Shown here in pieces: positions 5,438 to 63,191 of a stretch of 64,000 nucleotides of DNA. The DNA comes from Terrabacter sp. Ter38 (lineage in GTDB: Bacteria > Actinomycetota > Actinomycetes > Actinomycetales > Dermatophilaceae), in contig NZ_JALJRZ010000004.1 of NCBI RefSeq assembly GCF_024519435.1, positions 62,001-126,000 of the forward strand, read 5' to 3'. How positions within the stretch are numbered: position 1 is the first letter of the stretch; each line of letters starts with the position of its first letter. The notes under the pieces are model-generated. The model was not told where the DNA came from and did no database searches. It saw only the letters and a list, made by a program, of their open reading frames with translations. Made by a program: the position numbers and the translations under genes.

Positions 5438-6199
5438 ATGGACCTGACGCACTCCTTCAGCGTGCCGACCTCCGTCGACGACGCCTGGGCCCTCTTCATG
5501 GACCTCGAGCGCGTGGGCAGCTGCTTCCCCGGGGCGACCGTGACGGAGGTGACCGACGACGGCTTCTCCGGCACGGTCAAGGTCAAGCTGGGGCCGATCG
5601 CGCTCGTCTACTCCGGGTCGGGCTCGTTCGTCGAGCGCGACGACGCCGCGCACCACGCCGTCATCGAGGCCAAAGGCAAGGACAAACGGGGCAACGGCAC
5701 GGCCGGCGCCACCGTGACGATCACCCTGAGCCCCGACGGCGACGGCACCCGCGCCGACGTCGTCACCGACCTCGCCGTCACCGGCAAGCCGGCGCAGTTC
5801 GGCCGCGGTGTCATGCAGGACGTGTCCGACAAGCTGCTCAACGCGTTCGTCGCGTGCATCGAGAAGCAGCTGACCGGTCCGTCGGCCGAGCCGGAGGCCG
5901 CCCCGGCGGCGGCCGGCGCTTCGGCGGGCGCGTCGGCGGGGGCTTCGGCTGGCGCGGGCTACGTCGAGACGGGGTCGGATGCGCTCGCCGCGGACACCGG
6001 TCCGCAGGTCGGTGTCACCGCCGCGGCGGCCCACACGTCGCCGTCCCCGCGCCGGGTCCCGGCCTCCGTCGAGGAGGACGCGCCCCTCGACCTCGGTTCG
6101 GCAGTGATGCCCGTGCTGGTCCAGCGGTATGCCGGTTACGCAGCGGCTGCCGCCATCGGGGTCGTCATCGGCTGGCTCATCGGCCACCGGGGCGACTGA
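5438..6199 (+). CDS. coxG: CoxG-like SRPBCC protein with C-terminal membrane anchor
   Basis: This 253-residue protein starts MDLTHSFSVPTSVDDAWALF and continues VGSCFPGATVTEV, matching the START-like SRPBCC fold of CoxG proteins (about residues 1-150). An Ala/Ser/Gly-rich linker follows, then one hydrophobic helix (YAGYAAAAAIGVVIGWLIG) at the extreme C-terminus. In Oligotropha, CoxG recruits CO dehydrogenase to the membrane. The lone terminal helix here fits the same anchoring role; that is inference for this enzyme. It is the last gene of the operon, followed by a hairpin. Confidence 0.85.
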   Translation: MDLTHSFSVPTSVDDAWALFMDLERVGSCFPGATVTEVTDDGFSGTVKVKLGPIALVYSGSGSFVERDDAAHHAVIEAKGKDKRGNGTAGATVTITLSPDGDGTRADVVTDLAVTGKPAQFGRGVMQDVSDKLLNAFVACIEKQLTGPSAEPEAAPAAAGASAGASAGASAGAGYVETGSDALAADTGPQVGVTAAAAHTSPSPRRVPASVEEDAPLDLGSAVMPVLVQRYAGYAAAAAIGVVIGWLIGHRGD

Positions 6200-6213
6200 C
6201 CCCAGCACGTGCA

Positions 6214-6245
6214 GCAGGCCCGGTCGCGCTCCCGGCCGGGCCTGC
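6214..6245 (+). terminator. terminator of the cox operon
   Basis: A 10-bp perfect stem (6214-6223 with 6236-6245) lies 15 bases after the coxG stop. The GGCATAC motif overlaps its 3' foot at 6246. Confidence 0.6.
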
Positions 6246-6311
6246 GGCATACCCGAGGGGTCCGGTGGCGTTGGACCTGACGAGACCCCGTCCCCGAACC
6301 CCAGGAGAGTC

Positions 6312-6980
6312 ATGTCCCGCGTCATCCTCATCGGCGGCCACGGCAAGGTCGCGCTGCTCGCCGCCCCGCTGCTCGTCTCCGACGGCCACGACGTCACCTC
6401 GGTCGTGCGCAACCCCGACCACGCGGCCGACGTCGAGGCGACCGGTGCCACCGCTGTCGTGCTCGACGTCGAGCACGCCACGACCGAGCAGATCGCCGAG
6501 CTCGTGCGCGGCAGCGACGTCGTCGTGTGGTCGGCCGGCGCCGGCGGCGGCAGCCCCGAGCGGACGTATGCCGTCGACCGCGACGCGGCGATCCGCTCGA
6601 TGGACGCCGCGGGGCAGGCGGGCGTCGGGCGCTACGTCACGGTCTCCTACTTCGGAGCCGGTCCCGACCACGGCATCCCCGAGGACCACTTCTTCCACGC
6701 GTACGCCGAGGCCAAGACCGCGGCCGACGAGCACCTCCGGGGGACCGACCTCGCGTGGACGATCCTGCGGCCGAGCGCCCTGACCACCGATGCGGCGACC
6801 GGGCACATCGAGACGGGTGAGGGCGTCGTGGCCGGAAGGGTCTCGCGCGACAACGTCGCCCACGTCATCCGCGCTGTCGTCGAGCACCCCGACACGACGG
6901 CCCGGCGCATCCTGCCCTTCAACGACGGCTACCAGCCCATCGGCGAGGTCGTCACCAACCCCACCTCCCCAGCCGAGTGA
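6312..6980 (+). CDS. NAD(P)-binding SDR-like protein (NmrA/YwnB type)
   Basis: This is a 222-residue Rossmann protein. SRVILIGGHGKVALLAAPLL is the N-terminal dinucleotide-binding loop, with VVRNP for the adenosine end. SYFGAG is followed by a Tyr-containing stretch AYAEAKTAADEHL and LRPSALT, as in atypical short-chain dehydrogenases of the NAD(P)H-binding (pfam13460-like) group. Such proteins act as oxidoreductases or redox sensors; the substrate is unknown. The ATG at 6312 follows AGGAG at 6303-6307. It is a separate unit behind the cox terminator and converges on the next gene. Confidence 0.8.
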   Translation: MSRVILIGGHGKVALLAAPLLVSDGHDVTSVVRNPDHAADVEATGATAVVLDVEHATTEQIAELVRGSDVVVWSAGAGGGSPERTYAVDRDAAIRSMDAAGQAGVGRYVTVSYFGAGPDHGIPEDHFFHAYAEAKTAADEHLRGTDLAWTILRPSALTTDAATGHIETGEGVVAGRVSRDNVAHVIRAVVEHPDTTARRILPFNDGYQPIGEVVTNPTSPAE

Positions 6981-7052
6981 GCGCTCCGTCCCACGTGACT
7001 GGCTCGCGTCGGACCGCGTCCTCGCTCGACGGTGACCGGGCGCGCGCTCGAC

Positions 7053-8009
7053 TCAGGGGCGGGCGAGGTGCTCGGCGATGACGAGGTCCTGCCAGGCCAT
7101 GCCGACGCTCTTGAAGACGTTGGGCCGGTCGGTCGCCCGCTCGACCCGGCCGCGCACGAGATCGGCGAGCGTCCGCACGTCACCCCAGTCCAGCGCGCCC
7201 TGCGCGGCGGCGAGGATGACGTCGCCCGCCTCGCGGTGCGCCGTGCCGATGTCCTCGACGACGACGAGCGAGCGACCGAGCAGCGCCGAGCCGAGCTCGC
7301 GCCGGTGCGGCTCGTGCGACCCGATGGCCACGACGCAGGCGCCATCGGCCACCCAGTCGTCGCCGAGCACCGGGGTCGCGGCCGACGTCGCCGTCACGAC
7401 GACCTGCGCCTCGCGCACGGCTGCCTCGACCTCCTGCGGGTCGTCGACGGTGAGCCCGCGGGTGGTGAGCCGGTGCGTCGAGGCCAGCCCCGAGATCCGT
7501 TGCGCGGTCGCTCGCGCCGCATCACCCCGCCGGCCGACGACGGTCACGGCGGTCGTGGGCCGGATGGCGAGCAGCGCCTCCGCGTGACCGAGGGCCTGGG
7601 GTCCGCTGCCGAAGATGACGGCCGACTCGACCTCGTCCGGGGCGAGCGCGTCCATGGCGACGGCGGAGACCGCCGGGGTGCGCAGCGACGTGACGGCGGT
7701 GCCGTCGACGAGCACCGACGGCGCCAGAGTGTCCGCGTCCATGAGGACGTAGACCGCCTGGACGCGGTCGAGGCCACGCGCCGCGTTTCCCGGTGCGACG
7801 GTGAGCACCTTGACCCCAGCCGCGCGGCCGTTCGTCGACGGCATGACGAGCAGCTGTCCGCTGCCGTCACCGACGTCGGCGACGAGCCGGGCGGGGTCCG
7901 ACGCCGGGTCGAGGCCGTCAGCGAGCTCGCGACGGATCAGCCTGCGGGCGCGGTCGGGGGAGAGGGTCCGGCGCACGGCGGCGGCGTCGACCCAGCGCGG
8001 CTGCTGCAC
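7053..8009 (-). CDS. ornithine cyclodeaminase / mu-crystallin family protein
   Basis: This 318-residue NAD(P)-dependent protein has the family Rossmann motif FGSGPQALGHAEALL in the middle. The substrate-binding half ahead of it includes LVMPSTNGRAAGVKVLTV and DGTAVTSLRTPAVSA, where the conserved Lys and the Arg-Thr-Pro(Ala) loop are visible. Family members include ornithine cyclodeaminase, alanine dehydrogenase and imine/ketimine reductases, and the sequence does not decide between them. The GTG at 8009 is preferred because it sits directly behind the upstream gene's TGA with a GAGG-type ribosome site; the open frame extends further but overlaps that gene. Confidence 0.85.
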   Translation of the reverse strand: MQQPRWVDAAAVRRTLSPDRARRLIRRELADGLDPASDPARLVADVGDGSGQLLVMPSTNGRAAGVKVLTVAPGNAARGLDRVQAVYVLMDADTLAPSVLVDGTAVTSLRTPAVSAVAMDALAPDEVESAVIFGSGPQALGHAEALLAIRPTTAVTVVGRRGDAARATAQRISGLASTHRLTTRGLTVDDPQEVEAAVREAQVVVTATSAATPVLGDDWVADGACVVAIGSHEPHRRELGSALLGRSLVVVEDIGTAHREAGDVILAAAQGALDWGDVRTLADLVRGRVERATDRPNVFKSVGMAWQDLVIAEHLARP

Positions 8010-8402: not shown

Positions 8403-9776
<1,374 letters not shown>

Positions 9777-9850
9777 CGCCGCACGGCTAGGCTGAGGACG
9801 TATGCCGTCCGGCCGAGTCACCGTGCGTGGTTCGGGCCCGTGTCGGTCGG

Positions 9851-11170
9851 TCAGCGGTGGTGGGCCTCGGCGCTGCTGACCGGATAGGTCTGTCCCGCAA
9901 CGTATCTCGCGTACATGTCACCCGTCGCTCCACCCTCACGAGCGACCTCGGCGAAGAAGCGCCCCGAGTCACGGACCGTGCGTGCCTGCGTCTCGTAGTC
10001 GAGGGCCACGAGACCGAACCGCGGCCCCTCACCCTCGTTCCACTCCCAGTTGTCGACGAAGCACCAGTGGTAGTAGCGATCGACCGGAACCCCTTGAGCC
10101 CGAACGTCCCTCAGGACCGACAGGTGCTCCCAGAGGTATCGCGACCGGAAGGCGTCGGCGGCGTCGCAGGTGCCGTTCTCGGTGACCCAGACCGGGAGCC
10201 GGTAGGTCTCCCACGCCCACCTGGCCGTCTCACCGAGCCCGGCGGCATACACCTCCCAGCCGAGGTCGTTGACCGGGACGCCCGGCGGCGTGCCGTCGTC
10301 GAAGCGCGTCACCGTGGTGCGGGAGTAGTAGTTGAGCCCGAAGAAGTCGGCGTAGCGCCCGGGGGCGATCCCCGGCGGCCGGCGGAGCGGCGGCGCGAAC
10401 TCCCCGGTCGTCATCGCCCGCACGATCGCGTCCTGGAAGAGGTGGCGCATGACGGGCGTCAGCGCCCGGTGCCACGGGTTGCGGGCGTTGCCCGGCCGGA
10501 AGGGCCGCAGGTGGTGGGCGACCCCGACCATGGTGTCCGGCGCGGGCCGCAGTGCGTGGATGAGGGCGTACGCCCGGATGTGCGCGGTCGCGAGCACGCC
10601 GTAGACCCGCATCCCCTCGCGGAGGCTCCGGTGGCCCGGCGGGAAGTCGCCGAAGACGTGGGCGCCCGTGACGTAGACGTTCGGCTCGTTGATCGTCACC
10701 CACTCCGCGACGAGGTCGCCGAGTCGTGTCACGACCTCGCTGACGAAGCGCTCCCACACCCACAGGGCGCCGGGCGCGAGCCACCCGCCGTCGCGCTCGA
10801 ACCACAGCGGGTGGCTGAAGTGGTGCAGCGTCACGAGGGGGCGGATCCCCTTGGCGCGCAGGAGCTCCAGCTCCTCTCGGTAGCGGGCGAACGCGGCGTC
10901 GTCCCACACGCCCGGACGCGGCTCGAGGCGCGCCCACTCCACGCTCATCCGGTAGACCTGCACCCCGAGGGAGGCCATCAGCTCGGTGTCCTCGCGCCAG
11001 CGCCGCCAGTGGTCGGTGGCGCGCCGTGGCGTCGAGCCGTCGGCGATGGTGCCCGGGCGGTCCGCCCAGTCGGTCCAGCTGCTCTCGACGTCGCCGCCCT
11101 CGACCTGAGTGGCCGCGGTCGCGACGCCGAGCAGCAGCCCGTCGAGCCGGAAGCCGTCAGCGGTCGCCAT
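9851..11170 (-). CDS. glycoside hydrolase family 1 beta-glycosidase
   Basis: This 439-residue TIM-barrel enzyme retains the GH1 catalytic pair: the acid/base Glu162 in VTINEPNVY and the nucleophile Glu331 in VWVTENGT. The N-terminal GVATAATQVEGG and the late WCFVDNWEWNEG are the substrate-pocket segments of the family. It has no signal peptide, so it probably acts on imported or intracellular glycosides; the exact sugar is not readable. The ATG at 11170 was chosen because family homology begins at MATADGFRLDGLLLGVATAA. It is divergent from moeA, with 42 bases between the starts. Confidence 0.93.
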   Translation of the reverse strand: MATADGFRLDGLLLGVATAATQVEGGDVESSWTDWADRPGTIADGSTPRRATDHWRRWREDTELMASLGVQVYRMSVEWARLEPRPGVWDDAAFARYREELELLRAKGIRPLVTLHHFSHPLWFERDGGWLAPGALWVWERFVSEVVTRLGDLVAEWVTINEPNVYVTGAHVFGDFPPGHRSLREGMRVYGVLATAHIRAYALIHALRPAPDTMVGVAHHLRPFRPGNARNPWHRALTPVMRHLFQDAIVRAMTTGEFAPPLRRPPGIAPGRYADFFGLNYYSRTTVTRFDDGTPPGVPVNDLGWEVYAAGLGETARWAWETYRLPVWVTENGTCDAADAFRSRYLWEHLSVLRDVRAQGVPVDRYYHWCFVDNWEWNEGEGPRFGLVALDYETQARTVRDSGRFFAEVAREGGATGDMYARYVAGQTYPVSSAEAHHR

Positions 11171-54101: not shown

Positions 54102-54755
54102 TCACCGCTTCCGGGCGATGGTCAGTCCATCGAAGGCGGTCAGGACGACGGTCTCGACGCGATCGTCGGAGACCACCAGGTCGTTGAAGGCGCGCAACGC
54201 GACGGTGTTCGCGTCGTCGATCTCGGGATCGGTGATCCGACCGCTCCACAGGACGTTGTCCGCGAGCAAGAGCCCCCCAGGGCGAACCCGCGGCACCAGC
54301 TCGGCCCAGTAGGCGGCATACGCCGGCTTGTCCGCATCGATGAAGACGAGGTCGATGTCCGCCGCCGTGGGCAGTGCCCGCAGGGTGTCCAGGGCCGGCG
54401 CGATACGCAGCTCGATCCGGTCATCGAGGCCGGCGGAGGCCCACGCCCGTCGACCGATCTCGGTCCACTCCGCGCTGACGTCGCAACACAGCAGGGAACC
54501 TCCCTCGGCCAGGCCCCGGGCGATGCACAGGCTCGAGTAGCCGGTGAACGTCCCCACCTCGACGGCCCGGCGGGCGCCGACGAGCCGGGCGAGCAGGGTG
54601 AGCAGCTGCCCCTGGTCGTCGCCGATCTGCATCCCGGCGGCGTCCCCGAGCCCGGCCGTCTCCGCCTGGAGCCCCTGGATCACGGGATCGGGACGCCAGG
54701 TGCCGTGGGCGACGGCGTAGGAGCGGATCGCGTCGGTCACCGGGAAGCTACGCAT
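54102..54755 (-). CDS. class I SAM-dependent O-methyltransferase (CCoAOMT-like)
   Basis: This 217-residue cytosolic methyltransferase has the SAM motif VEVGTFTGYSSLCIARGL, CDVSAEWTEIGR, the metal-binding FIDADKPAYAAYW and ADNVLWSGRI, as in divalent-metal catechol/caffeoyl-CoA O-methyltransferases. Small bacterial members methylate catechol-type compounds; the actual substrate is unknown. The ATG at 54755 has TAGCGT six bases upstream. Confidence 0.92.
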   Translation of the reverse strand: MRSFPVTDAIRSYAVAHGTWRPDPVIQGLQAETAGLGDAAGMQIGDDQGQLLTLLARLVGARRAVEVGTFTGYSSLCIARGLAEGGSLLCCDVSAEWTEIGRRAWASAGLDDRIELRIAPALDTLRALPTAADIDLVFIDADKPAYAAYWAELVPRVRPGGLLLADNVLWSGRITDPEIDDANTVALRAFNDLVVSDDRVETVVLTAFDGLTIARKR

Positions 54756-54761
54756 CCTCGA

Positions 54762-54767
54762 ACGCTA
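54762..54767 (-). promoter_or_regulatory. -10 box TAGCGT, leaderless start
   Basis: TAGCGT on the minus strand, six bases before ATG 54755. Confidence 0.45.
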
Positions 54768-54818
54768 CGCCCCGGGGCCAGGGCCGTGCTCCGCGTCCCG
54801 AGCCACCGGCCCTCCCGC

Positions 54819-54824
54819 TACCGT
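54819..54824 (+). promoter_or_regulatory. -10 box TACCGT, leaderless start
   Basis: TACCGT stands seven bases before ATG 54832. Confidence 0.4.
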
Positions 54825-54831
54825 CCTGGGC

Positions 54832-55245
54832 ATGAGCCGACCCACCAGCGCCGTACGCCTCATCAGGGCCGCCGCGCTCACCGACACCGCGCCCTACGCG
54901 TATGCCGCGACGACCGAGGCCAACGCCCGGCTCCTCTTCACGGCGGGAGCCTGTCCCCTCGACGAGTCCGGCGCGACCGTGGCACCCGGCGACATCGCAG
55001 GTCAGGCCCGGCAGTGTGTGGCCAACCTCGTGACCGCCCTCGACGCGGCCGGCGGGACACTGGCGGACGTCGCCTACACGCGCGTCCTCGTGGCGACGAC
55101 CGTGCGGGAGGATCTCGTGGCGGCGTGGACCGTCGTCCACGACGCCTTCGGCGAGCACGAGGTGCCCAGCACCCTGCACGGCGTCACCGTCCTCGGTTAC
55201 CCCGACCAGCTCGTGGAGATCGAGGCCGTCGCGGCCCTCAGGTAG
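54832..55245 (+). CDS. RidA/YjgF family protein
   Basis: This 137-residue protein has the chorismate-mutase-like RidA fold. AYAATTEANARLLFTAGACPLDESGATVAPGDIAGQ matches the family, with QARQCVANLVTALDAAGGTLADV in the helix. The Arg used to hydrolyse imines (usually VKTT/R-V-x-V) is seen as YTRVLVATTV, and the C-terminal Glu in VEIEAVA. RidA removes reactive 2-aminoacrylate formed by serine/threonine dehydratases. sdaA lies in the same window but far away. It converges on the VWA operon, overlapping by eight bases. Confidence 0.88.
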   Translation: MSRPTSAVRLIRAAALTDTAPYAYAATTEANARLLFTAGACPLDESGATVAPGDIAGQARQCVANLVTALDAAGGTLADVAYTRVLVATTVREDLVAAWTVVHDAFGEHEVPSTLHGVTVLGYPDQLVEIEAVAALR

Positions 55246-56404
55246 CCCGCTCGGGCTCGTGGGTGGTGACGATGTCGTTGGCCGCGGCCCAAGCGGTGAT
55301 GTCGCGCTTCTCGATGGCCGTCGCCATGAGGTCGGGGAACTGGTCCGGGGTGCACGCGAAGGCCGGCACCCCGACGGCGGCGAGGGCCGAGGCGTGGTCG
55401 GCGTCGAAGCTCGGGCGCCCCGAGTCGCTGAGGGCGAGCAGGGCGACCATCGTCGCGCCGGACGCGACGATCGAGGATGCGCGTCGGACCATCTCCTCGG
55501 CGACTCCGCCCTCGTAGAGGTCGCTGATGAGCACGAGGATCGTCTCACCCGGCTGCTCGATCAGGCCCTCGCAGTAGGCGAGCGCCTGGTTGATGTCGGT
55601 GCCTCCGCCGAGCTGCACGCCGAAGAGCACGTCGACGGGGTCGTCGAGCACGTCGGTGAGGTCGACGACGGCGGTGTCGAAGACGACGAGGCGGGTCTCG
55701 ACCGAGCGGAGCGAGGCGAGCACCGCACCGAAGACGCTGGAGTAGACGACGGACTCGGCCATCGAGCCGGACTGGTCGATGCAGAGGATGATCCGCCGCT
55801 CGACCCGGTGTGCCCGCCGGGCGTGACCGACGAGCCGCTCGGGCACGACGGTGCCGTGCTCGGGCTGGTAGTGCTTGAGGTTGGCCGCGATGGTGCGGTT
55901 CCAGTCGATGTCGGAAGCCTTCGGGCGCCGGGTGCGTGACGCCCGGTTGAGCGCGCCGGAGACGGCCTGCACCGTCTCGGAGCGGAGCCGCTCCTCGAGC
56001 TCGTCGGTGACGACGCGGACCACCGCCCGCGCCGTGGCGCGCGACCGCTCGGGGATGACGCGGCCCAGCCCGACGAGCGTCGTGACGAGGTTGACGTCGG
56101 GCTGCACGGCCTCCATCAGCTCGGGCTCGAGGAGCAGCTGGGTCAGGCCGAGGCGGTCCATCGCGTCGTGCTGCATGACCTGCACGACCGACGACGGGAA
56201 GTAGCCACGGATGTCGCCGAGCCATCGCGCGACGCGTGGCGCCGATGCCCCCAGACCGCTGCGGCGCTCGCCGTCGTAGAGCTCGCGCAACGCCTCGTCG
56301 CGCTTGAGGTCGTCGGCATCGAGGCTCGCACCCTCGCCGATGCCGTCGGACTGGTCGCCGCCGAGGACGAGGCGCCAGCGGGTGAGCCGGTCGCGGTCGG
56401 TCAT
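55238..56404 (-). CDS. von Willebrand factor A domain protein (CoxE/YehP-like)
   Basis: This 388-residue protein has a helical N-terminal half and a VWA domain from about 200. The intact MIDAS motif is D210-Q-S-G-S214 in CIDQSGSM, followed by FDTAVVDLTD and GGTDINQALAY with the Thr-Asp metal residues. It partners MoxR-type ATPases in many operons. It is the last gene of the five-gene operon, overlapping DUF5682 by four bases. It binds a partner through the metal site by analogy; no partner has been shown. Confidence 0.9.
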   Translation of the reverse strand: MTDRDRLTRWRLVLGGDQSDGIGEGASLDADDLKRDEALRELYDGERRSGLGASAPRVARWLGDIRGYFPSSVVQVMQHDAMDRLGLTQLLLEPELMEAVQPDVNLVTTLVGLGRVIPERSRATARAVVRVVTDELEERLRSETVQAVSGALNRASRTRRPKASDIDWNRTIAANLKHYQPEHGTVVPERLVGHARRAHRVERRIILCIDQSGSMAESVVYSSVFGAVLASLRSVETRLVVFDTAVVDLTDVLDDPVDVLFGVQLGGGTDINQALAYCEGLIEQPGETILVLISDLYEGGVAEEMVRRASSIVASGATMVALLALSDSGRPSFDADHASALAAVGVPAFACTPDQFPDLMATAIEKRDITAWAAANDIVTTHEPERAT

Positions 56405-58626
56405 GAGGCCACCTCCATCCCCAGCAGCCGGGCGACCTCGGCGATCGCGGGTGCCGCCCGGTCGAGGTCGAGCGAGTCGGTCGACGACGGGGTCGTACGC
56501 GTGCCGCTGGCGAGGTCGCGCAGGTGCGTCCCGATGAGGCGGCGTTCGGCGGGCTGGTAGCGCGAGAACGTGCGGCGCACGAGCGGCAGGAGGTCCTCGA
56601 AGGCCTCCTCGGACGCGCCGACGAGCCACTCGTCGATGATCGAGAGCAGGTCGTCGCCGTGGACGAGGAGCAGGGCCTCGCCGGTGAGGAAGCCGTCGAG
56701 CCAGGCCGCGGCAGCAGGGGCCGGGGTGCCGGGGGAGAGCCGGCGGCTCAGGCGCGCGGCCGCCTCGTCGTGCGCGAGGTGCCCGCCGTCGAGCAGCAGC
56801 CGGTTGACGCGTCCGGCGACGGCGCCGTGGATGGCCTCGTCGCGACCGACGGTCACGAGCGCCTCGGTCCACGGGTCGCGCAGGTCGTCGCGGTCGACGA
56901 GCGCCACACCGCGGTGGGCCGCCTCGAGGGCGGCACGCATGGCGGCCGCGCTGTCGTCGTCGAGGCTCGAGCACGCGGCGCGGAGCCCGACGGACGCGCG
57001 CACGACGACGGTCTGGAGCACGCGCGCCACGTCGGCGACGTCGACTCCGCGCACGTCGCCGTAGCGGCACGTCCGCGCGAGCGGCTCGACGGTCTCGAGC
57101 AGGGCCTGGGTGTCGTGCTGGCGGGCCGTGCGCTCGGCCAGCGCGGCCACGACGGCGCGCAGTCCCTCGGGCAGGTCGGCGAGGAGGCACTCCTCGATGA
57201 GCCTTCCGAGGACGCGGAGGTCGGCCGCCTCCCGCGCCTCCTCCGCGATGCGGGACTCGGCGGCGCTGCGGACCGTCGTGCCGTGGAGGCTCGCCTCGAT
57301 GACGGCGACGGCGAGCTCGGGTGTCCACTCGAGCTCCCACGCCTCCTTGAAGGTGCCCGTCGTGCGGCCGGCGTCGACCTGCGTGCCCCACGGGACGTCG
57401 AGGACGGCGAGTCGGTGCAGCAGCACGGACCGGGCGAGCTGGGACTCGCGGCGCAGGTCGAGCCGCACGACCGTCGAGGTCGCGGACGCCTTGAGCCGCA
57501 AGGTCTTCTGCTGCTTCGCGAGGTCCCCGGCCAGCGGCACCGTCGGGGTCGACTCGGGCACTCTGCCGAGCAGCTCACCGATGACGAGCGTGCGGTCGAC
57601 GAGCCGCAGGGGAAGGTCGGAGCCCTCCGTGAGGACTGCCCGTGCGGCATCGGTCAGCTCGGCGAGCCCGACCGAGGGCCGGCCCCGTACGGCGGCGAGC
57701 GCGGCCGCGAGACGGGTCGCCTCGACGACCGAGGCGGTCGAGGCATCGAGGTCCTCGCCGCGCAGGGCCCGTGCGACGCGGACGAACCACGACGGCACGA
57801 CCTCGTCGTCGGGGGTGACGAAGAGGTGGTGGTACCAGCCGGGCGAGCGGACCCCTGCGCCGTAGCCACTGGCATACGACAGGCGCTCGGAGCTCCACGG
57901 CGCCCACGTGGCGGCGACCTTGACCTTCGGCAGCTTGCTCATGAGCGCGGTGTCACGGCTCACCGGCGGGAAGGATGCGGGGTCGAGGGCCGGGGCGTGG
58001 TAGGCACCGCACACGACGGCGACGCGCTCGCGTCCGCCACGCATCTCGGCGCGGATCACTCTGCGCATGAAGGCTTCTCGGCGCGCGTCGTCGTCGACCT
58101 CGAGGTCGACGCGGACTCCCTCCATCGCTTCGCGGAGGTGGGCGAAGTGGGCGAGGGACGACGTGCGCCGGTGCTCGACGGCGTCCTCCCACCAGCGCTC
58201 GGGGTCGTCGTAGCCGGCTGCCGACGCGAGGGCCGAGATGGGGTCGAGGCGCCGGCCCGGACGACGCGGAGCGTCCTCGGAGTCGCCGCCGGCGAGGTGG
58301 TGCGTGGCGGGCAGGTCGGCGAAGCGCACGTCGACCCCGTGCTCGAGGGCCCACCGCAGCGCCACCCACTCCGGGGAGAAGACGGCGAACGGGTAGAACG
58401 CCGCCCGCCTCGGCTCGTCGACGGCGTAGACGAGACCGGCCACGGGCGGCACGAGGTCGGCGTCTGCGGCGAGCGGGACGAGCGCGTCGAGCTCGGGGGG
58501 CCCTTCGATGACGACGACGTCGGGCAGCAGTTCGTCGAGGGCGCGGCCGACGGACCGCGCGGAGCCCGGGCCGTGGTGCCGGACGCCGAGCACCTCGACC
58601 CGCACGTCCACCCCTGGAACGCTCAT
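56401..58626 (-). CDS. DUF5682 family protein, TraB/ChaN-like hydrolase signature
   Basis: This is a 741-residue protein. The N-terminal 250 residues hold VEVLGVRHHGPGSARSV (His17, His18), VVVIEGPPE (Glu41), RFADLPATHH and VAVVCGAYHAPAL (Gly207-His210). This spacing of HH, E and GxxH resembles the EreA/ChaN/TraB group of putative metal-dependent hydrolases, so a catalytic site is likely (inference). The remaining 500 residues are helical and unassigned. ATG 58626 is four bases downstream of the MoxR stop. The gene overlaps the VWA gene. E. coli yehM sits in an analogous yehL-yehP neighbourhood. Confidence 0.82.
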   Translation of the reverse strand: MSVPGVDVRVEVLGVRHHGPGSARSVGRALDELLPDVVVIEGPPELDALVPLAADADLVPPVAGLVYAVDEPRRAAFYPFAVFSPEWVALRWALEHGVDVRFADLPATHHLAGGDSEDAPRRPGRRLDPISALASAAGYDDPERWWEDAVEHRRTSSLAHFAHLREAMEGVRVDLEVDDDARREAFMRRVIRAEMRGGRERVAVVCGAYHAPALDPASFPPVSRDTALMSKLPKVKVAATWAPWSSERLSYASGYGAGVRSPGWYHHLFVTPDDEVVPSWFVRVARALRGEDLDASTASVVEATRLAAALAAVRGRPSVGLAELTDAARAVLTEGSDLPLRLVDRTLVIGELLGRVPESTPTVPLAGDLAKQQKTLRLKASATSTVVRLDLRRESQLARSVLLHRLAVLDVPWGTQVDAGRTTGTFKEAWELEWTPELAVAVIEASLHGTTVRSAAESRIAEEAREAADLRVLGRLIEECLLADLPEGLRAVVAALAERTARQHDTQALLETVEPLARTCRYGDVRGVDVADVARVLQTVVVRASVGLRAACSSLDDDSAAAMRAALEAAHRGVALVDRDDLRDPWTEALVTVGRDEAIHGAVAGRVNRLLLDGGHLAHDEAAARLSRRLSPGTPAPAAAAWLDGFLTGEALLLVHGDDLLSIIDEWLVGASEEAFEDLLPLVRRTFSRYQPAERRLIGTHLRDLASGTRTTPSSTDSLDLDRAAPAIAEVARLLGMEVAS

Positions 58627-58630
58627 GGGC

Positions 58631-59728
58631 TCAGCCGAGCTCGCGGCACGCGCGGTAGAGGTCGGTCCACTCCGACCGGTCCTTGACGACGGTCTCGAGG
58701 TACTCCTGCCACACGATGCGGTCCTGGACGGGGTCCTTGACGACCGCACCGACGAGGCCGGCCGCGACGTCGTCGGCCCGGACGACGCCGTCGCCGAAGT
58801 GGGCCGCGAGCGACAGCCCGTTGGTCATGACGGAGATGGCCTCGGCGGTCGACAGGGTCGCCGACGGCGACTTGACCGTGGTCCGCTGGTCCGCGGTGAC
58901 CCCCGAGCGCAGCTCGCGGAAGATCGTGACGACGCGCTCGATCTCGGCGAGGGACTCGAGGCCGGGCGGCAGCTCGAGCGAGCGGCCGAGCGAGTCGACC
59001 CGGGTGCGGACGATCTCGACCTCCTGCGCCAGGGTGTCGGGCAGGGGCAGCACGAGGGTGTTGAAGCGGCGCTTGAGGGCCGACGAGAGGTCGTTGACCC
59101 CCTTGTCGCGGTTGTTGGCGGTGGCGATGACGTTGAAGCCCTGCTGCGCCTGCACCTCCGAGTCGAGCTCGGGGATCGGCAGGTGCTTCTCCGACAGGAT
59201 CGTGATGAGGGCGTCCTGGACGTCGGCCGGGATGCGCGTCAGCTCCTCGATGCGCACGAGGGTGCCGGTCTCCATGGCTCGCATGACCGGGCTCGGCACG
59301 AGCGCGCCGCGCGTCGGCCCCTCGGCGAGCAGCCGCGCGTAGTTCCAGCCGTAGCGCAGCGACTCCTCGGGCGTGCCGGCCGTGCCCTGGACGATGAGGG
59401 TCGACGAGCCGCTGACGGCGGCCGCGAGGTGCTCGCTGACCCACGTCTTGGCCGTGCCCGGGACGCCGAGGAGCAGCAGGGCCCGGTCGGTGGCCAGGGA
59501 GGCGACGGCGACCTCCATGAGCCGTCGTGACCCGAGGTATTTCGGCGTGATCTCGGTGCCGTCGTCGAGCGTGCCGCCGAGGAGATAGGTCGTGACGGCC
59601 CACGGTGACAGCCGCCAGCGCGGTGGGCGGGGTCGGTCGTCGGAGGCGGCGAGGGCGGCCAGCTCGGCGGCATATGCGTCCTCGGCGTGGGCGCGCAGGA
59701 CCGTGGTGGGAGAGAGTGATTCGCTCAT
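58631..59728 (-). CDS. MoxR-family AAA+ ATPase
   Basis: This 365-residue AAA+ protein has Walker A GVPGTAKT (88-95), Walker B LVRIEELTRIP, the sensor/Asn region FNVIATANNRDKGVNDLSSALKRRFN with an arginine finger, and a C-terminal lid. MoxR ATPases act as chaperone-like remodellers with VWA proteins. The ATG at 59728 overlaps the DUF5691 stop by four bases. Within this operon it probably supplies the energy for whatever the VWA and DUF5682 proteins do. Confidence 0.93.
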   Translation of the reverse strand: MSESLSPTTVLRAHAEDAYAAELAALAASDDRPRPPRWRLSPWAVTTYLLGGTLDDGTEITPKYLGSRRLMEVAVASLATDRALLLLGVPGTAKTWVSEHLAAAVSGSSTLIVQGTAGTPEESLRYGWNYARLLAEGPTRGALVPSPVMRAMETGTLVRIEELTRIPADVQDALITILSEKHLPIPELDSEVQAQQGFNVIATANNRDKGVNDLSSALKRRFNTLVLPLPDTLAQEVEIVRTRVDSLGRSLELPPGLESLAEIERVVTIFRELRSGVTADQRTTVKSPSATLSTAEAISVMTNGLSLAAHFGDGVVRADDVAAGLVGAVVKDPVQDRIVWQEYLETVVKDRSEWTDLYRACRELG

Positions 59729-61245
59729 CTGAAGGCCTCGGTGATCGATCGCTTGACGGAGTGGAACTGGAGCAGGTTGCGCAGGTTGGTCGTCAGCGTG
59801 TGGTCGGCGCCGGTGGACTCGAGCCAGCGCTCGACCGCGTCGAGCGCGGCGGGGTGCAGCCCGGCGACGAGGTAGGGCAACGTCGCCACGACGATCGCCG
59901 AGCCCTGGGGTGCGGCGCGCAGCCGGGACACGAGCGCGACGCTGTAGTCCGCCGACCACGGGGGCTCGACGGCCGCGATGACGGCGGCCGCGTGGTGCGG
60001 CTTGGTGTTCGTCGCGTCGACGCGCCGCAGCACGGCCCGCTCCCGCAGCTCGCGCGGGAGGGCGGGCACGAGCGTCGGGTCCCAGCCGCCGTCGAGCAGG
60101 GCCGCCGCCCACTCGGGGTCGCGTCGGACTCGCGCGGCACGGCGTATGCCGGCCAGGGCGTCCGTCGCGTGCGCGTCGGTGAGGCGCTTGACCGTTGCCA
60201 CCGGACCGGCTCCGGTCAGCTCGGCCCAGAGCTCCAGCGGGGCGCCGGCGCAGAGCTGCTCGAGCCACCACCCACGGGCGGAGCGGCGCGGCGGGGGCTT
60301 GCCGAGGCCGTCGCGCACGGCGTCGGGGTCGGGCTCGTCGGGCAGGGTCACCTCGACGGCGCGACCGAGCAGGCCACTGCGCCGCACGAGCGGTCGCAAC
60401 AGTGCGGCCATGCGGGCGGCCCGGGCCGAGCCCGGCAGGGCGTCGAGCAGCTCGGCCGCCAGCTCGCGGACGCTGGCGGCCCGGTCGTCGAGGGCGTCCT
60501 CGAGCAGTGGCTCGTCGTCGGGGCCGAGGGCGATGCGCAGCGCGTCGAGGTGTGCCCGACGATCGCGTGCCGCGTCGGTGGCCCAGGTGGCGCGGACGAG
60601 GTCGCGTGCAGCAGCCGGGTCGTGGGCCCGGACACCCGCGAGCACGGAGACCCGGTCGGTCGAGGGCAGCCTGGCCCAGTCGTCGGCGTGCGGCGCGGTG
60701 CCGGTGGTGCGCGAGGCGGTGCGCGCCTCGGCGCCGGCGGAGGCGTCGGCGACCCACGACCACTCGTCGCGCAGCCCGGCCAGCCATCGTCCCCGTTCGT
60801 CGAGCACCGCGGCCGCCGGGCGTCGCAGCTCGCGCGCCCCGGTGGCGAGCGCGATCACCGTCGGCAGCAGGGCGTGCGGCACCCGGCAGTCGGCGTCGTC
60901 GGCGGCACCCAACCAGTGCGCGAGCAGGGCGCTGCGCTGCTGGGCCCCGGCCGGGGGCTGGGTCATGACGAGCTCGAGCAGCTGGACGGCCCGCCGCGGA
61001 GCGACGGGGCGGTGGTCGTCGGGGGCGGCTCCCGGTGGCTCGGTGTGGTCGAGGCGCCGTCCCGCGCGGACGGCCGCTCCGCCCAGCGCCGCGGCGTCGA
61101 GGAGGGCCTCCTCGCGGGAGGACTCGCCGGAACGTCCCAGGACGCCGGCGCTCCCGAGGTCGGGCAGCGGGGGCACCGGCCGGCGCGCCGTGCCCAGCAG
61201 CGCGGCGTTGCCGATGTCGCGCCACCACGTGTCGAGGTCGCTCAC
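59725..61245 (-). CDS. DUF5691 family protein
   Basis: This 506-residue, Ala/Arg/Leu-rich helical protein begins (V)SDLDTWWRDIGNAALLGTARRP, the usual DUF5691 start. The rest looks like HEAT-type helical repeats (ALGPDDEPLLEDALDDRAASVRELAAELLDALPG), fitting a scaffold or binding surface. No catalytic motif was seen. The GTG start overlaps the SWIM gene stop (GTGA) and its stop overlaps the MoxR start, so it is embedded in the operon. Confidence 0.85.
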   Translation of the reverse strand: MSDLDTWWRDIGNAALLGTARRPVPPLPDLGSAGVLGRSGESSREEALLDAAALGGAAVRAGRRLDHTEPPGAAPDDHRPVAPRRAVQLLELVMTQPPAGAQQRSALLAHWLGAADDADCRVPHALLPTVIALATGARELRRPAAAVLDERGRWLAGLRDEWSWVADASAGAEARTASRTTGTAPHADDWARLPSTDRVSVLAGVRAHDPAAARDLVRATWATDAARDRRAHLDALRIALGPDDEPLLEDALDDRAASVRELAAELLDALPGSARAARMAALLRPLVRRSGLLGRAVEVTLPDEPDPDAVRDGLGKPPPRRSARGWWLEQLCAGAPLELWAELTGAGPVATVKRLTDAHATDALAGIRRAARVRRDPEWAAALLDGGWDPTLVPALPRELRERAVLRRVDATNTKPHHAAAVIAAVEPPWSADYSVALVSRLRAAPQGSAIVVATLPYLVAGLHPAALDAVERWLESTGADHTLTTNLRNLLQFHSVKRSITEAFR

Positions 61246-62549
61246 AGTCCGACCACCTCGCCGTCGAGCACGACGGTGAGCGGCCGCAGGCGGGTCTCCT
61301 CGAGCTCGCCGAAGAGGCGTGCCGGCTCTCCGCCGGTCAGGGCGAGCAGCGACCACACGTCGGCGTCGTCGGTCAGGGGGACGCTCGCACCGTCCGCGTC
61401 GACGACCCGGTCGACGCCGACGCGCACGTCGGACAGGACGACGGGGATGCGGCGCGCCCACGGGTTGCGCCCCCAGGTCTCGGCCGCGGCCGACCGCGCG
61501 TCCTCGAGGGACGCACCGGACGGCATACGCACGTCGCCGTCGGAGACGGTGGGCTCGTGGACGAAGAGGGCCCGCCGCACGGCGGCACCCGGATAGCGTG
61601 CGAGCGTCGCGTCGAGGCCGGAGCCGACGATGCGCGCGACCGGCAGCACCTGGCCCCCGGCCGCGAAGTCGAGCACCTGCACCGTCTCGCCGGTAGCGCT
61701 GCCGCGCAGCCACGTGCGCTGCTGCTGGAGGCGGCCGTCGTCCGTGCGATGCGCGCCGAGGACGAGCCAGCGGTCGGTCACGGCGTCGCCCCGGCGCACC
61801 GACTCGGTGCTCGTCGACCAGCCGAGGTAGGCGCGCAGGTCGCCGAGCCGGGCCTCGTCGAGGGACTCGCGCCCCGACCAGGCCCGGGTGGCGGTCCACC
61901 ATCGGCCGAGAGCGACGAGCAGCCGCTCGGCCCAGTCGGGGCGACCGGTCACGGCGCCGCCGACCGAGCGCACGTCGTCGGCGAGTCCGGGCAGCTGGGC
62001 GTCGACGAGGCGCGCGGCCGTGCCGTCCCACCACGCGTAGGACTGGTGCCGGGCGGCTGCCGTGCCGCTGCGCGCGAGGTCGGTGAGCCACCGCGCGAAG
62101 TCGTCCATGCCGTCGTCCATGAGGGCGAGCCGCTCCTCGAGGCGCTTCGCCGCGGCTGCAGGGTCGGGGGTCCTCGGCGGGCGGGCGGCGTCCCCCGCGG
62201 CCTTCGACTCGGCCCGGGCCGAGCGCTCTGCTGCCCACTCCTGGGCGAACCCGGCCACCTCGGTCGCCTCGGCGACCGACCCCGACCCGTCGACCCAGAG
62301 GATCAGGAGCGCGAGCCCGTGCTTGCACGGGAACTTGCGGCTCGGGCACGAGCACCGGAACGCCGGCGCCGTGAGGTCGATGCTCACCTGGTAGGGCGTC
62401 TTGCCCGACCCCTGGCACTTGCCCCAGAGCAACGTCTCGGTGGAGCCGGTGTCGGACCACGGCCCCGGGCGCGCGAGCCTCCGGGCAGCGGCCAGCGACG
62501 AGGCGTCGGGAGCCAGACCGGCCACCTGCTGGGAAGTCCATCGCGTCAT
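61242..62549 (-). CDS. SWIM zinc-finger protein (YehQ-like)
   Basis: This 435-residue protein is the first gene of the operon. Its N-terminal SWIM motif is CxCx6CxH: Cys66, Cys68, Cys75, His77 in FRCSCPSRKFPCKHGLALL, a zinc finger that binds DNA or protein. The rest is a mixed domain without known motifs, ending in LRPLTVVLDGEVVGL. ATG 62549 is preferred to 62579 because homology-like sequence begins at MTRWTSQQVAGLAPD. A TCATGAT box nine bases upstream could be the -10. Confidence 0.88.
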   Translation of the reverse strand: MTRWTSQQVAGLAPDASSLAAARRLARPGPWSDTGSTETLLWGKCQGSGKTPYQVSIDLTAPAFRCSCPSRKFPCKHGLALLILWVDGSGSVAEATEVAGFAQEWAAERSARAESKAAGDAARPPRTPDPAAAAKRLEERLALMDDGMDDFARWLTDLARSGTAAARHQSYAWWDGTAARLVDAQLPGLADDVRSVGGAVTGRPDWAERLLVALGRWWTATRAWSGRESLDEARLGDLRAYLGWSTSTESVRRGDAVTDRWLVLGAHRTDDGRLQQQRTWLRGSATGETVQVLDFAAGGQVLPVARIVGSGLDATLARYPGAAVRRALFVHEPTVSDGDVRMPSGASLEDARSAAAETWGRNPWARRIPVVLSDVRVGVDRVVDADGASVPLTDDADVWSLLALTGGEPARLFGELEETRLRPLTVVLDGEVVGL

Positions 62550-62600
62550 GACTCGCACATCATGACCGACACCTCCCACACCCGTGGGCGGACCGCCGTA

Positions 62601-62660
62601 TGCCGTGTCAGCGCGTGCCGTGTCAGCGCGTGCCGTGTCGGCGCGTGCCGTGTCGGCGCG
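62601..62660. repeat. 15-bp tandem repeat, four copies
   Basis: The unit TGCCGTGTCRGCGCG occurs four times without gaps. Copies 1 and 2 have A, copies 3 and 4 have G at the variable site, as expected from a duplication of duplications. It lies between the stop of the BldC-like gene and the start of the SWIM operon, so it could be a protein-binding array or a slippage-prone tract. Confidence 0.85.
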
Positions 62661-62663
62661 CGG

Positions 62664-62918
62664 TCAGGCGTCGCCGGCCGCGCTACGGGTGCGGTCGGCG
62701 TCACCCTCGCGGACGAGCCGCTCCAGGTGCGCCATGACGCTGGCGCGCTCGAACCGCCGGTGACCGCCGGGCGTCCGGGTCGAGGCCAGCAGGCCCACCC
62801 GCGCCCACCGGGTGATGGTGGCCGGAGAGACCCGGAAGATCCGGGCGACCTCGTGCGGAGCCATGAGCTCCCGGTCATCGCCGTCGTGCCCGTGGCCGGA
62901 TGAGTGTGCTGTCGCCAT
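62664..62918 (-). CDS. BldC-like MerR-type DNA-binding protein
   Basis: This 84-residue protein has a single winged HTH of the MerR/excisionase type: LMAPHEVARIFRVSPATITRWARVGLLASTRTPGGHRRF. This is the BldC pattern, with the GGHRRF wing, and it lacks an effector domain. BldC controls development in Streptomyces; related short proteins are frequent in actinobacteria. The acidic, Gly/His-rich N-terminal arm is unusual. ATG 62918 has AGGGG upstream. Confidence 0.85.
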   Translation of the reverse strand: MATAHSSGHGHDGDDRELMAPHEVARIFRVSPATITRWARVGLLASTRTPGGHRRFERASVMAHLERLVREGDADRTRSAAGDA

Positions 62919-62984
62919 GGTGCTGCCCCTGTATCCCCTGTGCGCCACGTCCCCCGACGCGCGATCAACCACACCATACCCACC

Positions 62985-63191
62985 CTTGGCAGCCGCCAGT
63001 CGGCGAACCGAGCGACGGGCCGGGAGACCGACAGGGCCGCGTCGGCGGGCCTGACCTCGAGGCCGCGTGCGAGGTGGGCAGCAGCCCTGCGGTGACTAGA
63101 GGTGCGCGAACGTCGCGATGCCGGCAGAACCGAGCCCGACGAGGATGCGGCGGTACTCGCGGCTCGCGGGGAGGCGTCCGGCCGAGGTCAT
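62985..63191 (-). pseudogene. remnant of an MFS transporter gene (N-terminal part)
   Basis: From ATG 63191 the frame reads MTSAGRLPASREYRR then ILVGLGSAGIATFAHL, a typical MFS start. The next codon is TAG (63098-63096) where Tyr is expected before SPQG. One base missing then shifts the frame (GLLP becomes unreadable). Another frame resumes with RGLEVRPADAALSVS, the usual continuation, and is lost near 62990. No downstream MFS helices were found. It looks like a decayed, mostly deleted transporter. Confidence 0.7.

Follow-up and report, generated by a model that had tools for sequence, protein, structure and literature searches.

We analysed a stretch of 64,000 nucleotides from Terrabacter sp. 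Ter38 (contig NZ_JALJRZ010000004.1, positions 62,001 to 126,000; this whole stretch is called the window below), in which five genes on the reverse strand, at 55238-62549, form a compact set built around a MoxR ATPase, a DUF5682 protein and a VWA protein. In reading order, the genes are as follows.

61242..62549, reverse strand: SWIM zinc-finger protein, the first gene (435 amino acids, ATG start; PF04434, E=1.3e-5, above the cut-off)
59725..61245, reverse strand: DUF5691 protein, an armadillo/HEAT-like helical scaffold (506 amino acids, GTG start; PF18944, E=1.2e-105)
58631..59728, reverse strand: MoxR AAA+ ATPase of the YehL subfamily (365 amino acids; AAA_5, PF07728, E=1.1e-37)
56401..58626, reverse strand: DUF5682 protein, with an N-terminal alpha/beta domain (about residues 1-250) followed by helical repeats (741 amino acids; PF18934, E=3.2e-245)
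55238..56404, reverse strand: CoxE-type VWA protein (388 amino acids; VWA_CoxE, PF05762, E=3.5e-53)

The identity of each of the five proteins is supported by the Pfam scan. In a preliminary description of this DNA, the genes had been said to be joined by 4-bp overlaps or a 4-base gap, and the exact coordinates bear this out: overlaps of 4 bp connect SWIM with DUF5691, DUF5691 with MoxR and DUF5682 with VWA, and a 4-base gap lies between MoxR and DUF5682. The parallel that it had drawn with yehLMPQ of Escherichia coli also holds at the level of orthology. The MoxR protein is closer to YehL (40% identity over 353 amino acids, 8e-77) than to RavA (E=0.024 over 41 amino acids), the VWA protein is closer to YehP (36% identity, 1.8e-75) than to ViaA, which is near background (E=0.014), and YehM is a member of the DUF5682 family. 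The E. coli order is yehL (MoxR), yehM (DUF5682), yehP (VWA) and yehQ (SWIM), so that the order of MoxR, DUF5682 and VWA is the same as in the window. However, the SWIM gene comes last in E. coli and encodes a longer protein (614 amino acids), whereas it comes first in the window, and WGR and DUF4132 genes with a pseudogene lie upstream of the yeh set; WGR and DUF4132 are missing from the window type. A search of the E. coli control genome for DUF5691 gave no match. The module is the actinobacterial counterpart of the yeh genes of E. coli, which were already known as genes. The YehL subfamily of MoxR proteins was reportedly defined by Snider and Houry in 2006 from sequence and local gene structure. 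It is a recognised subfamily for which excerpts of PMC3893208 and PMC11432383 name no function. Among papers naming at least three of yehL, yehP, yehI and yehQ together with Escherichia coli, only a reduced-genome announcement was found; the part of the matching literature that was searched did not mention DUF5682 or DUF5691, and yehM and yehL were absent from the searched text of PMC8264917. What is new here is the obligate triad, its two exchangeable arms, the gene fusions and the TIKI-type assignment of DUF5682.

For comparison, we used 80 loci that ranked highest among at least 555 confirmed candidates in bacterial and archaeal genomes; since they are best matches and nearly all of one type, their number says nothing about prevalence. 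All five genes were present in 73 of them, the other seven running into contig ends. The gene order and direction of the window were kept in 62 of the 73 complete loci, and SWIM and DUF5691 were divergent in 11 (Streptomyces and its kin). In a phylum sample of 197 genomes, DUF5682 was found in 18 and DUF5691 in 16 above the cut-off (sub-threshold matches in G048, G146 and G177 were omitted from this count). As all 16 DUF5691 genomes fall among the 18 with DUF5682, on the same contig and a few kilobases apart, the grouping is not due to chance (Fisher p=1.2e-21). The five genes had been expected to make a machine-like set, and the co-occurrence agrees with a machine-like and co-evolving one, the genes being nearly always together in the loci examined.

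The invariant core of the set is the MoxR-DUF5682-VWA triad, which the preliminary description overlooked. Thirty further loci were chosen for DUF5682 (20 phylum stretches, some from one genome, eight neighbourhoods from the plasmid collection, E. coli K-12 and an E. coli plasmid copy), and the three genes were found together in all 30, as well as in all four additional records from Fusobacterium, Methylobacterium, Proteus and an 'UNVERIFIED' phage scaffold. These loci span Actinomycetota, Pseudomonadota, Deinococcota, Bacteroidota and Fusobacteriota. Around this core, SWIM plus DUF5691 and DUF4132 plus SWIM, with or without WGR, are alternative add-ons. Type I, with SWIM and DUF5691, accounts for 10 of the 30 further loci in addition to the 80. 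In type II, DUF4132 was present in 10/10 loci and a second kind of SWIM protein in 8/10 (two of them weak); WGR was found in E. coli yehF and in the DUF4132 protein of Sinorhizobium. Type III, in which DUF5682 is fused to VWA, was found in seven loci, with DUF4132 present in both that were scanned, and type IV, with the order VWA-MoxR-DUF5682, in three loci, where add-ons were sought with in-house profiles and one Pfam-scanned frame. The SWIM proteins of the two kinds showed no significant similarity (probability 8.4%, with a SWIM profile partly seeded by SWIM-DUF5691 fusions), and DUF5691 as a relative of DUF4132 was dropped for want of profile similarity. When types were assigned from the accessory genes, counting loci cut at contig ends as type I, each type formed a single split in the DUF5682 tree (support 0.78-1.0), and types I, III and IV, though not type II, did so in the MoxR tree. 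As the trees split by type, the add-ons largely travel with their own core.

Neighbouring genes of the set are also naturally fused, which is strong evidence for joint action. SWIM and DUF5691 form a single frame in seven loci (including Actinoplanes, a planctomycete metagenome-assembled genome and Hymenobacter), all of which show the SWIM motif and match DUF5691, and DUF5682 and VWA form a single frame in the seven type III loci. Several loci depart from these layouts. In two type III loci (L127, 12254-17008; L147, 2729-7651), a protein of about 1,600 amino acids, without a Pfam match at E<=0.01, lies between DUF4132 and MoxR. In Fusobacterium vincentii (L180, 4935-6848), the order is SWIM, a 638-amino-acid protein, MoxR, DUF5682 and VWA, and the 638-amino-acid protein in the DUF5691 slot looks unrelated and has no Pfam match above the cut-off. 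On a Methylosinus plasmid (L143, 11172-12397), the VWA gene is interrupted and spread across three frames; recombinase and insertion sequence (IS) genes occur nearby on the record. In Kribbella steppae (L080, about 8665-9990), MoxR and DUF5682 are about 1.3 kb apart, compared with almost nothing in most of the 80 loci.

The functional motifs of the MoxR, VWA and SWIM proteins are intact. The MoxR protein carries Walker A (residues 88-95), Walker B with its glutamate pair (161-162) and a sensor-1-like ATAN motif (202-205); K94 of Walker A and E161/E162 are unchanged in 81/81 sequences. In the VWA protein, D210-x-S-x-S214, T269 and D295 form the metal ion-dependent adhesion site (MIDAS), and D210, S212, S214, T269 and D295 are kept in 82/82 sequences. 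The SWIM protein contains CxCx6CxH at residues 66-77, in agreement with the SWIM-domain pattern CxCx(n)CxH, and its zinc ligands C66, C68, C75 and H77 are kept in 74 of 76 aligned sequences, the remaining two being gaps. The description of DUF5691 as a helical scaffold is consistent with its AlphaFold2 model, which is almost entirely helix (mean predicted local distance difference test, pLDDT, 86.6; predicted template modelling score, pTM, 0.77). Armadillo/HEAT-type proteins lead its Foldseek matches in the PDB, none of them at E<=0.001, and PDB sequence searches with the DUF5691 profile gave chance-like matches only.

DUF5682 looks like an enzyme, judging from its conserved residues, and this was missed by the preliminary description. 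In the AlphaFold2 model (pLDDT 87.3, pTM 0.81), an alpha/beta domain of alternating strands and helices extends to about residue 250 and is followed by helical repeats. The N-domain contains TIKI-like motifs, namely G14xxH17, E41, R183-E184 and G207xxH210. We aligned 30 rows (29 distinct sequences, as L025 and L128 are the same gene) from types I-III and at least four named phyla, and found R16, H17, H18, P20, A23, E41, P61, A63, P79, S84, P85, E86, A89, D104, W146, E151, R172, R183, E184, M187, G207 and H210 to be invariant, and G14 to be glycine in 27/30 rows. Several of these residues directly follow model strands 9-15, 37-40, 99-102 and 201-207; H17, E41 and H210 come after 9-15, 37-40 and 201-207, respectively. 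When the 29 N-domains were compared with Pfam at E<=10, 14 families besides DUF5682 were matched, and only two of them by more than one N-domain: ChaN, labelled 'Tiki superfamily' (5/29, best E 0.0078), and TraB/PrgY/GumN (2/29, best E 0.011).

For a direct comparison, a TraB profile of seven sequences was built; two of nine TraB-like rows had been dropped beforehand as too divergent or without the second motif, and E. coli YbaP was used as the query for plasmid matches, which a TraB query from the window's own phylum had not found. With hhalign, the DUF5682 N-domain scored 31.7-31.9 against this profile (P 0.0011 at 31.9), a score not reached by 600 column shuffles (maximum 22.8 in 300 and 28.5 in 300 more), by reversed columns (14.6), by five unrelated alignments (13.6-26.1) or by an EreA alignment (20.7-20.8). 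In a permissive alignment of 207 columns, GxxH, Glu, Arg and GxxH are in register with TraB, pairing G14 with G38, H17 with H41, E41 with E67, R183 with R228, G207 with G249 and H210 with H252, and the TraB partners are all invariant in the seven-sequence set. The two GxxH motifs, the Glu and the Arg of DUF5682 types I-III thus follow the same order as the TraB invariants. DUF5682 resembles the TIKI superfamily (TraB/PrgY/GumN, ChaN and the erythromycin esterases) in the two GxxH motifs, the Glu after strand 2 and the Arg in the helix that precedes the last motif, and differs from it in its long helical-repeat C-terminal part, its tie to an AAA+ ATPase and its own Pfam family. TIKI enzymes have an active site of two His and two Glu (PMC6254334, excerpt).

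Several results weigh against this assignment or against catalysis. A singleton Pfam match, CBM46 (E=0.0042), beats the best ChaN E-value, and the unrelated DUF5691 control reached 25.4-26.1 in hhalign, where the probability of a TraB relation was 18-20%. The default alignment covered 33 columns around R183-H210, the four-motif register appearing only at the permissive setting, and a global alignment found nothing. Whole-chain Foldseek returned helical-repeat matches, none at E<=0.001 and none with a TIKI fold among the matches listed (50 of 643), and PDB sequence searches with the DUF5682 profile gave chance-like matches and no TIKI relative. A relation to erythromycin esterases (EreA) was tried and was not significant, although the aligned stretch was the R-[DE]-xx-M...H region. 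In addition, TIKI folds are not always catalytic, as PMT is without the motif (PMC6254334, excerpt) and ChaN is described in Pfam as haem-binding. The yeh genes are missing from a viable reduced-genome E. coli and are dispensable there (PMC10652928, excerpt). With statistics that are suggestive and not decisive, we consider that the DUF5682 N-domain probably belongs to the TIKI superfamily.

We propose that the module may be a protein-remodelling machine in which a MoxR-VWA pair of the YehL class is coupled with a putative TIKI-type hydrolase, a reading to which we give a little under an even chance. From the invariant neighbourhood and the natural fusions, MoxR, DUF5682 and VWA would act as one obligate functional unit, which is evident genetically and in which the proteins presumably touch. 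Like NorQ/NorD, CbbQ/CbbO and CoxD/CoxE, the window combines a MoxR ATPase with a VWA adaptor whose MIDAS is intact. Compared with these systems, it has an extra obligate TIKI-like subunit, a SWIM protein and a helical scaffold, and no client gene was recognised nearby. In NorQ/NorD, the NorD VWA domain plugs the pore of the NorQ hexamer, action on the client depends on the NorD MIDAS residues, and the plug mode was proposed as general for MoxR/VWA couples (PMC9976466, excerpt). With its intact motifs and by this analogy, MoxR would form an active ATPase hexamer and engage the VWA protein with its pore, and the MIDAS metal of the VWA protein would grip an acidic patch on the client. The N-domain of DUF5682, as a TIKI-superfamily domain in sequence and model, is predicted to carry its active-site signature at H17/H18, E41, R183-E184 and H210, and DUF5682 may cleave or otherwise hydrolyse the client, or a group attached to it, once MoxR-VWA has opened the client. 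SWIM and the helical DUF5691 would serve as a recruiting arm; in the E. coli type, this arm is seen to be replaced by DUF4132, with or without WGR, and another SWIM protein.

The distribution of the set bears on this proposal and on its alternatives. Within the genus, DUF5682 was found in 8/9 genomes, the window's own included, and the ninth is 74% complete; among 98 relatives it was found in 15. The genus has therefore kept the set stably, and the distribution is patchy from one family to the next. In E. coli, it was present at >=80% coverage in 5162/5426 genomes, and 5320/5322 matching places were chromosomal. In the plasmid and phage collections, 36 of 72,556 plasmid records and one of 50,697 phage records carried it. 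Of the earlier suggestion of a mobile or ancient conserved module, the ancient part stands, in view of the E. coli parallel, and the mobile part is not supported, the set being near-universal and chromosomal in E. coli and present in 8/9 genomes of the genus. One E. coli plasmid typed as conjugative (L150) carries a chromosomal stretch from yehI to mlrA, one end of which has an IS26-like transposase gene, and a record from human stool labelled 'UNVERIFIED Bacteriophage sp.' (L179), with MoxR-DUF5682-VWA, is probably mislabelled bacterial DNA. Several Streptomyces-like genomes have two or three copies of DUF5682. Outside the five genes, no neighbour recurs in more than 15 of 81 clustered loci. 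The neighbour groups of 10-15 loci (named by eye) are mostly a Streptomyces/Catenulispora block beside sucCD-like and helicase-like genes. Ten loci have a dehydrogenase-like group and another block centres on Kribbella, and Streptomyces, its kin and Catenulispora share a neighbourhood of housekeeping-like genes in 14-15 loci.

A different reading of the same proteins is an insertion chaperone like CoxD/CoxE, NorQ/NorD or CbbQ/CbbO, in which DUF5682 would be a metal- or haem-binding delivery subunit and no hydrolase. The VWA protein is indeed of the CoxE type, the best matches of MoxR among solved structures are Midasin (2e-17) and then NorQ (1.1e-6), ChaN, described as haem-binding, is the Pfam family that the DUF5682 N-domain matches most often, if weakly, and zinc would be bound by the SWIM protein. 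Genes for insertion chaperones are usually found beside the gene of their client, however, and the lack of a recurrent neighbour speaks against such a chaperone here, as do E41, E86, D104, E151 and R183-E184 of DUF5682, which are as invariant as its histidines. A further weak hint in its favour comes from yehM, which was mutated in copper-evolved E. coli (PMC12409786, excerpt). Overall, the chaperone reading is rather doubtful. The 'conflict-type' reading of the preliminary description, which takes the set as a phage-defence or conflict system of the MoxR-vWA ternary kind, was not borne out and is highly improbable. MoxR-vWA pairs are known in conflict systems, where a third component likewise defines the lineage (PMC7159879, excerpt), and vWA-MoxR-VMAP occurs near CRISPR loci (PMC10910872, excerpt); the multiple DUF5682 copies and the presence of the set on some plasmids would also suit defence. 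The third component is DUF5682 in the window, whereas it is VMAP, iSTAND, FtsH or a beta-propeller in the published systems (PMC7159879, excerpt), and no Pfam match to these or to effector-associated domains was found in the five proteins, flanking genes not having been scanned systematically. PADLOC (2023 library) gave nothing for four of the proteins and, for MoxR, no more than weak P-loop matches to its IetA and TRIP13 models (E>=0.005), and the bpMoxR model scored 20.3 bits against MoxR, below its cut-off of 27. Near-universal chromosomal presence in E. coli, the neighbourhood shared in Streptomyces and kin, an accessory set that largely follows the core lineage and the absence of the set from the viable reduced E. 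coli genome (PMC10652928, excerpt) also argue against defence.

The DNA-reading parts, SWIM and WGR, could instead point to a remodeller for DNA damage or genome maintenance, which we regard as unlikely. The E. coli type comes with WGR and DUF4132 proteins, a table of SOS genes lists yehF with values of up to 1.14, in an unchecked unit (PMC11002266, excerpt), and in D. radiodurans WGR and DUF4132 genes go up when DdrO is depleted (PMC8533742, excerpt). In K-12, a LexA-box-like CTG-N10-CAG site (L002, 1450-1465) ends nine bases before yehF, which encodes WGR and lies upstream of the yeh set, but it may be due to chance because there are 19 such matches in this 27-kb stretch, and yehH, yehI and yehK lie between yehF and yehL. 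The window type has neither WGR nor DUF4132. Moreover, a LexA-like GAAC-N4-GTTC site was absent within 400 bp upstream of SWIM in 75/75 loci tested and from the whole window, on which ground LexA/SOS control of the window type was rejected.

Two further features adjoin the SWIM gene upstream.

62664..62918, reverse strand: small MerR/HTH_17-type regulator (PF00376, E=2.4e-10)
62601..62660, no strand: four copies of a 15-bp direct repeat, between the regulator gene and SWIM (Tandem Repeats Finder)

Among the 80 loci, the regulator gene was matched only in the nearest one, that of Terrabacter sp. Root85 (L040; tblastn E<=1e-3), whose DUF5682 is 96% identical. It is thus outside the conserved set and a candidate local regulator, and together with the repeats it is possibly a strain-variable local regulator with an operator array. 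The Root85 locus has, by eye, only about one copy of the 15-bp repeat, and its SWIM gene is apparently split across two frames near the 5' end (about 5971-7382), by assembly error or decay. A scan of 54700-63000 for sigma-70 promoters and terminators gave no match.

In conclusion, five genes with no assigned function and the little-studied yehLMPQ can now be considered as a concrete and testable machine, with named candidate sites for catalysis (H17/H18, E41, R183-E184 and H210 of DUF5682), metal grip (VWA) and ATP (MoxR). Testing should be easy, as the genes are present in E. coli K-12 and missing from a reduced-genome strain. In its boldest form, the proposal would be an unrecognised class of ATP-fuelled hydrolase with a MoxR ring, a VWA client-gripper, a putative TIKI-type catalytic DUF5682 and interchangeable arms, with YehL-YehM-YehP as its E. 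coli representative and occurring across at least five named phyla; we offer this as a possibility that is more doubtful than probable. If the activity is proteolytic, this would be an AAA+ protease with a protease fold unlike those of Clp, Lon, FtsH and the proteasome. Should DUF5682 prove catalytic, hydrolysis would join chaperoning and cofactor insertion as a further branch of what MoxR-VWA machines do.

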